Source: Elusimicrobia bacterium RIFOXYA2_FULL_47_53 (GTDB taxonomy: Bacteria > Elusimicrobiota > Endomicrobiia > Endomicrobiales > XYA2-FULL-47-53). From it: a stretch of DNA of 34,284 bases. A model generated the notes under the pieces. The model was not told the origin of the DNA. It did not search any database and saw only the letters and a program-made list of their open reading frames with translations. How positions within the stretch are numbered: the stretch's first letter is position 1; the number at the start of each line of letters is the position of its first letter. The position numbers were made by a program, and so were the translations under genes. Of this stretch, positions 1-34,284 are shown piece after piece. The stretch spans positions 1-34,284 of the forward strand of contig MGVE01000015.1 of assembly GCA_001800315.1 (NCBI GenBank), given 5' to 3'.

Positions 1-382
<382 letters not shown>

Positions 383-492
383 ATATTTTATACATATATA
401 TAGTTGCCCATATACATGCTCAATCTATAGAGAATAGAAAAGCTCTATTACTTTATTAGAATTGTACTACGAATTACTTTGGCCTTTGATTA

Positions 493-33720: not shown

Positions 33721-33749
33721 TTGCCATAAAATATCATTTATGGTATAAT
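33721..33749 (+). promoter_or_regulatory. Promoter of the tRNA-Ser / GIY-YIG unit
   Basis: TTGCCA (33721-33726), 17-bp spacer, perfect TATAAT (33744-33749). The start of transcription would be about 33756, just before a 5' tRNA fragment. It looks like the original tRNA-Ser promoter. Confidence 0.75.
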
Positions 33750-33776
33750 TCACCCGTCAGGAGAACCCGCTTCGCA

Positions 33777-33808
33777 ATTGAATTCTGGAGAGGTCGCATA
33801 GTTGGCTT
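33777..33808 (+). repeat. Direct repeat, left copy: tRNA-Ser 5' fragment plus leader
   Basis: This 32-bp sequence (ATTGAATTCT followed by the first 22 nt of the tRNA-Ser) is identical to 34121-34152. It places a 5' half-D-arm fragment of the tRNA directly after the promoter. It is not a functional tRNA. Confidence 0.95.
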
Positions 33809-33854
33809 CCCGCCACCGTGTCTTTGGCGGGTTCGCCAGTGGTTTAGTGGCGAA
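33809..33854 (+). other. Pair of adjacent hairpins inside the inserted unit
   Basis: CCCGCCA (33809-33815) pairs with TGGCGGG (33825-33831), and TTCGCCA (33832-33838) with TGGCGAA (33848-33854). They follow the tRNA fragment directly and precede the nuclease gene. Confidence 0.65.
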
Positions 33855-33884
33855 AGTGCAACCGAGCCGTTGACCGGGGGGTCT

Positions 33885-34145
33885 ATGCGGGAATATTTCG
33901 TTTATGTTCTCAGAAGCATCAAGAATCGCAAAATATACACAGGATATACAGCGGAAATCAATAAGCGGATTCACAGGCACAACAGCAGAAGGGTTAAATC
34001 AACAAAAGCATGCGTTCCGCTTAAACTGATTTATTGCGAAAGATTTACTGAAAAGGCCACCGCGCAAAGAAGAGAAAGATTTTTGAAATCCGGTAAAGGC
34101 AGAATGGTGCTGGAAAATATATTGAATTCTGGAGAGGTCGCATAG
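33885..34145 (+). CDS. GIY-YIG nuclease, single domain
   Basis: 86 aa from the ATG at 33885 with a GGGGGG ribosome site; the TTG at 33870 is less likely. The GIY-YIG domain is complete: FVYVLRS (first motif), IYTGYT (YIG variant), an Arg in NKRIHRHNS and Glu in YCERF (about 52), then TAQRRERFLKSGKGR. Small GIY-YIG proteins of this kind are nucleases; many are mobile. The last 8 codons (ILNSGEVA and stop) are read from the tRNA-Ser leader and tRNA 5' end, so the gene overlaps the tRNA by 15 nt. Together with the repeats this suggests a mobile unit. Confidence 0.92.
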   Translation: MREYFVYVLRSIKNRKIYTGYTAEINKRIHRHNSRRVKSTKACVPLKLIYCERFTEKATAQRRERFLKSGKGRMVLENILNSGEVA

Positions 34146-34152
34146 TTGGCTT
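34121..34152 (+). repeat. Direct repeat, right copy (start of intact tRNA-Ser)
   Basis: 32 bp identical to 33777-33808, 344 bp apart. It supplies the tRNA-Ser leader and first 22 nt and the end of the nuclease frame. Confidence 0.95.
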
Positions 34153-34222
34153 AGTGCGCTGGTTTGCTAAACCGGTATACGGATGAAAATCTGTATCGAG
34201 GGTTCAAATCCCTCCCTCTCCG
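34131..34222 (+). tRNA. tRNA-Ser (anticodon GCU)
   Basis: 92 nt with a perfect acceptor stem GGAGAGG / CCTCTCC and discriminator G. The D stem is GCA/TGC, the anticodon stem CTGGT/ACCGG with loop TTGCTAA (anticodon GCT), the long variable arm has ATACGGAT/ATCTGTAT, and the T stem is GAGGG/CCCTC with TTCAAAT. CCA is not encoded. It reads AGC/AGU codons. The 5' end overlaps the nuclease gene. The nearest promoter is 382 bp upstream. Confidence 0.97.
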
Positions 34223-34262: not shown

Positions 34263-34284
34263 AGAATAGAATGGATTTGAACCG

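Follow-up and report, generated by a model that had tools for sequence, protein, structure and literature searches.

A GIY-YIG nuclease gene between a palindrome-bearing broken tRNA copy and an intact tRNA-Ser gene: a candidate homing-like element of tRNA-gene loops

The window (the whole 34,284-nt stretch of contig MGVE01000015.1 that was analysed) ends in a compact unit, in which a gene for a small GIY-YIG nuclease lies between a broken copy of a tRNA-Ser gene, interrupted by two palindromes, and an intact tRNA-Ser(GCT) gene, the sole one among the 43 tRNA genes that ARAGORN finds in the genome (Table 1). A sequence-only reading of this DNA had already described the promoter, the 32-bp repeat, two hairpins, the 86-aa reading frame and the tRNA, and all were found at the positions it gave; its view that a unit resembling an insertion lies at the tRNA D-loop, and that the tRNA is made whole again at the 5' side, is upheld, as are the absence of an integrase (the 344-bp unit holds the GIY-YIG gene only) and the placing of the promoter, now 5' of both the broken tRNA copy and the nuclease gene. 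The hairpins are indeed present, as tandem 23-bp palindromes, but their dispersed nature had escaped that reading. Because the D-stem sequence AGTGC resumes 3' of the palindromes, the upstream copy is a tRNA whose D-loop has received an insert, and a resumption of this kind is also seen at other loci. The last codons of the nuclease frame (S-G-E-V-A-stop) fall in the leader and tRNA, such that the gene does, as proposed, borrow its stop codon from the tRNA. At the other end of the window (positions 1-383, minus strand) lies a 16S rRNA gene of which the contig start leaves only the 5' part.

Table 1. Features of the unit at the tRNA-Ser(GCT) gene (positions in the window)
Feature	Position	Strand	Remarks
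Predicted promoter, TTGCCA-17-TATAAT	33721-33749	+	11/12 consensus matches, extended -10
32-bp repeat, copy 1 (10 bp leader + tRNA-Ser nt 1-22)	33777-33808	+	100% identical to 34121-34152
tRNA part of copy 1	33787-33808	+	ends within D-loop
Palindrome 1, CCCGCCA-N9-TGGCGGG, 23 bp, in D-loop	33809-33831	.	dispersed repeat
Palindrome 2, TTCGCCA-N9-TGGCGAA, 23 bp	33832-33854	.	tandem to palindrome 1, same family; from sequence
Resumed tRNA, AGTGC (D-stem 3' strand), then fades	33855-33859	+	compared with 34153-34157
GIY-YIG nuclease gene, 86 aa from ATG	33885-34145	+	stop at tRNA position 15
32-bp repeat, copy 2 (leader + tRNA nt 1-22)	34121-34152	+	exact direct repeat, spacing 344
Intact tRNA-Ser(GCT)	34131-34222	+	ARAGORN; Rfam 54.4 bits

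The 86-aa protein matches the GIY-YIG family PF01541 with 51.3 bits and is barely larger than the catalytic domain; Y5, Y16, R26 and E62 occupy the catalytic columns and are invariant in an alignment with its relatives (A1), and the gene thus encodes, as a freestanding homing endonuclease gene does, a homing-type nuclease domain with its catalytic residues. The nearest solved structures are those of UPF0213 proteins (best 1zg2 and 1ywl), followed by I-TevI and SLX1. By sequence, the one-domain UPF0213 (YazA/YhbQ-like) proteins and SLX1 have the same fold without a separate DNA-binding domain; the UPF0213-type relatives in the window's kin are, however, rarely linked to tRNA genes (about 3/38), unlike the window-type nucleases. 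SLX1 is a structure-specific enzyme, and we speculate that a single-domain enzyme related to it could recognise hairpins, which, if so, would account for both the tRNA loops and the palindromes. SGEVA-like C-termini, suggested from the sequence alone as a mark by which to search for such proteins, do not serve as a general one: the reading frame extends into the tRNA in about half of the cases with a downstream tRNA, often with its stop at the same tRNA position, and other members stop at other positions. A plasmid or phage origin was also considered and set aside, as all matches fall below 60% identity and those on plasmids resemble housekeeping YazA; a tblastn search of phage records with the subfamily consensus likewise gave only matches below 60% identity.

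With a consensus of window-type proteins as query, 453 relatives were found in GTDB genomes, and the best 80, picked by protein similarity alone, were kept. A tRNA gene on the same strand (no more than 260 bp upstream or 150 bp downstream of the nuclease gene) adjoins the nuclease in 60 of these best 80, downstream in 50 and upstream in 10, and an adjacent tRNA on the opposite strand in 0 of the same 80. For comparison, random positions on the same contigs have an adjacent tRNA in 4.2% of cases, and other GIY-YIG subfamilies in the window's kin in about 3/38, a figure reached after hand reassignment of three loci (L007, L037 and L053) that the motif criterion had mis-sorted. The remaining 20 of the best 80 have no adjacent tRNA, and count against the element model that we propose below. 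Targets within this set comprise tRNAs for Arg, Ser, Phe, Ala, Cys, Gln, Lys, Leu, Thr, Val, Glu, Met, Pro and Trp; its hosts belong to Bacteroidota, many Patescibacteria lineages, Chloroflexota, Margulisbacteria and Ignavibacteriota. This recurrence across many phyla had been overlooked by the sequence-only reading, together with the nuclease-free and T-loop (3') versions described below.

The layout of these loci repeats that of the unit in the window. A significant tRNA copy lies 5' of the nuclease in 40 of the 50 tRNA-downstream loci (38 being 5' parts and 2 being 3' parts), and in 34 of these 40 a hairpin begins within 4 nt of the junction, as against 12.5% in shuffles. Two clusters of junctions stand out, at tRNA positions 20-22 (18 cases) and 11-13 (10 cases); past the palindrome, tRNA sequence often continues up to roughly the anticodon arm, where the nuclease gene takes over. 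The loop that is interrupted, the D-loop in the window, is the T-loop or the anticodon loop at other loci, and mirror-image loci double the 3' part of the tRNA: at L060, the nuclease comes after an intact tRNA-Phe and precedes a 3' fragment whose T-loop holds a palindrome. In Mesohalobacter (L139) the units stand in tandem.

The pattern CCCGCCA-N9-TGGCGGG occurs 21 times in the source genome, as against 0 for the reversed pattern used as a control; these are dispersed copies of one hairpin, as in a palindromic interspersed element of the RPE/REP-like kind. Filled loci have palindromes in their broken tRNA copies, and palindromes also occur where the nuclease is lacking: at tRNA-Glu(CTC) (L157), a 25-bp leader-plus-tRNA 5' repeat is followed by the same D-loop palindrome pair and then by an intact tRNA-Glu, and at tRNA-Thr(TGT) the intact tRNA is followed by a 3' fragment with the palindrome pair in its T-loop. 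Overall, 17 of the 43 tRNA genes (including one Leu(TAA) match that is in fact a Ser-like 3' fragment) have partial copies no more than 700 bp away, with 5' parts always upstream and 3' parts downstream.

Further repeats accompany the tRNA genes of this genome. Hairpins of a second family, marked by the motif GTGCGACGAATAAGGAGCAC or a variant of it and by a conserved loop, lie in broken tRNA copies at L176, L177, L189, L190, L191, L192, L194 and L195, and a third repeat type (L170, L174, L188 and L189) starts with GGGATTTGAAGCCGACCCGAGCG, a T-arm antisense, and ends in a 3' tRNA copy; L174 consists of three tandem 127-bp units of it, and the contig end (window 34272-34284), which reads TGGATTTGAACCG, may be the start of another. 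A second window-type nuclease of the same genome (L002; C12:16568-16783) has on both sides a 60-bp unit made up of a tRNA-Asp 5' part (24 nt) and two hairpins whose sequence differs from those of the window, with an intact tRNA-Asp farther on.

Filled and empty sites can be compared directly at the yqeY-tRNA-Arg(TCG) neighbourhood of Flavobacteriaceae, which is conserved in all 30 of the loci studied, these being the best yqeY matches among 61 genomes. At 28 of the 30, the tRNA follows yqeY by 10-141 bp without a GIY gene ('empty' here means without the nuclease; some such sites hold tRNA copies); L231 has one unit, and L211 two tandem units of ~310 bp, between yqeY and an intact tRNA-Arg(TCG). 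Of the sites without the nuclease, L227 has a broken 5' tRNA copy with a palindrome, and L212 and L214 have 3' tRNA copies. Among 17 tRNA-Ser(GCT) genes of relatives, which were matched by the tRNA gene and not by synteny, the nuclease lies directly upstream in L253 only (in the same place as at L009); L237 has a nuclease of another subfamily downstream, and a few of the loci hold nuclease-free 5' or 3' tRNA pieces. A unit that is never missing, which the sequence-only reading had reckoned as evidence against mobility, is therefore not what was found (1/17 filled at tRNA-Ser(GCT), and 28/30 without a GIY gene at tRNA-Arg); what we see is sporadic presence with empty cognate sites, as for a freestanding homing endonuclease gene.

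The idea that a 5' tRNA piece travels with the element does not hold, as the repeat includes a leader specific to the locus: 10 bp in the window, and about 40 bp of local leader at tRNA-Ser(TGA) in the same genome. Whatever the species and isotype, it is also the local tRNA that the repeat matches. Because the repeats hold local leader sequence, we take the duplicate to be a copy of the target locus, and the duplicated piece was thus probably made from the target itself. A single staggered cut of fixed length was considered and rejected, since the duplicated lengths (about 20-60 bp) vary too much between loci, a spread that also weighs against the element model set out below. On the nuclease tree, the tRNA isotype changes 28 times, as against 34-45 times in 200 shuffles; as the tree is built on few columns and leaves many forks unresolved, this demonstrates an association and not an exact history. 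A Cys target is nested among Ser targets, with GTGGCC|GAGTGG at the break common to both, and together with the association this suggests that the sequence or shape of the D-arm is recognised.

Synthesising these findings, we think it likely, on the evidence of sequence comparison, that the unit is a small selfish, homing-like element based on a freestanding GIY-YIG gene that lives in the loops of tRNA genes. Insertion at tRNA loops, local duplication, a surviving tRNA, presence/absence and tandem arrays are demonstrated by the loci compared here: a one-domain GIY-YIG gene stands between a broken, palindrome-bearing tRNA copy and an intact tRNA, and the tRNA part beside the break is doubled along with local leader or trailer, such that the tRNA gene survives. 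We suggest that the nuclease cuts tRNA genes at their loops, and that repair of the break may then insert or amplify the unit, doubling the adjacent tRNA end; selection for the essential tRNA would retain only those events that leave an intact copy. The palindromes may act as a hairpin-like partner or substrate of the nuclease, or may be passengers that inactivate the duplicated half. Saying this, insertion of a homing endonuclease gene should abolish its target, and here an intact tRNA lies beside the gene; that it still holds the presumed target, and would so be exposed to renewed cutting, speaks against the model. The palindrome sits at the D-loop, yet ~10 nt of tRNA resume before the nuclease gene, and one insertion event therefore does not explain all of the junctions.

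A different account would make the dispersed palindromes, like Rickettsia palindromic elements or REPs, the mobile entity that enters tRNA loops, with the GIY-YIG gene a later passenger. It draws on the nuclease-free tRNA copies with palindromes (L157, L162 and L158 in the source genome, L227 in Flavobacteriaceae) and on the dispersal of palindromes outside tRNAs too; a gene that lies between broken and intact copies, in one orientation and in many phyla, is however too regularly placed for a passenger, and the target isotype tracks the nuclease tree, and we regard this account as unlikely. It is hardly credible that the tRNAs were duplicated in tandem spontaneously, with one copy decaying and a GIY-YIG gene nearby by chance: whilst integration events are known to leave partial tRNA copies (PMC9897764) and L083 has a nearly full pseudo-copy, the junctions cluster at loops and bear hairpins, 5' copies without exception precede the tRNA and 3' copies follow it, and adjacency reaches 75% in the best 80 of the 453 relatives, against 4% at random positions and 3/38 in other GIY-YIG subfamilies.

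The promoter upstream of the broken copy, and a D-arm sequence that is often exact, would suit a broken copy that works as a functional tRNA-like 5' leader, controlling nuclease expression or pre-tRNA processing. Against this, the leader region, taken as a single RNA, does not exceed shuffles in folding (z = 0.12), almost nothing of the copy is left at L112 and L132, and at L060 and L101 it lies downstream of the gene; we consider such a role very improbable.

More tentatively, and with some doubt on our part, the small GIY-YIG proteins might be the enzymes of a new type of transposition that acts on hairpins, be they the arms of tRNA genes or dispersed palindromes. Hairpin units would then be inserted at loops with duplication of the adjacent tRNA end, and there would be both autonomous elements (with the nuclease) and non-autonomous ones (palindrome-only). 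RAYT enzymes act likewise for REPs, with a nuclease unrelated to GIY-YIG.

The homing-like element that we favour has partial counterparts among known systems. SegB of phage T6, a GIY-YIG enzyme with a freestanding gene, makes its cuts within tRNA genes and causes tRNA plus segB to be amplified in tandem, via homology of the tRNA 5' end with the 3' end of the gene; the genes for SegB and other T-even freestanding GIY-YIG homing endonucleases likewise lie beside tRNA genes and not in an intron (PMC13096335). In our reading, the motif reported for SegB, RAWTSGAAC, is similar to the antisense of the T-loop of tRNA. SegB is a phage system, whereas ours is chromosomal, and no broken tRNA copy with a palindrome is known to us from that report (PMC13096335). 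In the fungal mitochondrial mORFs (atp6 of Allomyces and Glomus), an endonuclease ORF likewise sits in an essential gene whose interrupted part is doubled, with its function kept (PMC3630166); these are however protein genes, doubled at their 3' ends only, and the restored C-terminus is foreign and element-borne, whereas here the genes are tRNA genes and the duplicate matches the local tRNA and leader (PMC3630166). A gene hybrid of the mORF type was rejected on this ground, the duplicate being identical to local tRNA and leader.

The rRNA genes of CPR bacteria likewise have insertions that contain GIY-YIG ORFs and fit neither the group I nor the group II intron type, and the rRNA insertions as a whole lie mostly at the top or base of stem-loops (PMC11270868); that study concerns rRNA genes, with no duplication or palindromes described, and its authors judged the GIY-YIG ORFs to lie outside homing (PMC11270868). 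A group I or II intron was also set aside for the unit in the window, where no Rfam intron family appears at gathering score or among matches with E<=10, as was a tRNA-targeting element with a tyrosine integrase, since the unit has a GIY-YIG gene only and it is the 5' part, not the 3' end, of the tRNA that is rebuilt. Dispersed short hairpins inside RNA genes are likewise found with RPE, REP and mitochondrial double-hairpin elements (for the last, PMC2800124). Here they come in tandem pairs. We know of no RPE, REP or double-hairpin element that is tied to a GIY-YIG gene or to a partial duplication of the target tRNA.

No published description of the combination of GIY-YIG gene, broken tRNA and palindrome was found in the open-access literature; its parts are of known kinds, and provisionally we regard the combination as new. 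The homing-like element would give selfish DNA in essential, single-copy tRNA genes a rule by which the host is spared, and would account for many of the GIY-YIG genes and broken copies that adjoin tRNA genes in uncultured phyla. It would also point to an enzyme that may move dispersed palindromic repeats, for which, to our knowledge, no agent of mobility is known in most genomes; hairpin transposition, if true, would be a new kind of element. Because filled and empty sites occur in cultivable marine Flavobacteriaceae, besides uncultured lineages, these proposals can be put to experimental test.

Some related genes and repeats lie away from tRNAs. In a sister clade of the nuclease (L008, L075, L086 and L091), the gene has no tRNA and lies within a long inverted repeat, ATCCCGTTAGAGAT...ATCTCTAACGGGAT, that is, in the loop of a palindrome. 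At L054, a GIY-YIG gene seems to split a protein-coding gene (four-helix-bundle-like), with GTGGAAT/ATTCCAC on either side. In Dokdonia (G103), at L135, L138 and L142-L147, CCTGCCTGCCGGCAGGCAGG also occurs within a larger dispersed repeat (GCTTTCGCGAAATCGA...), far from tRNAs.
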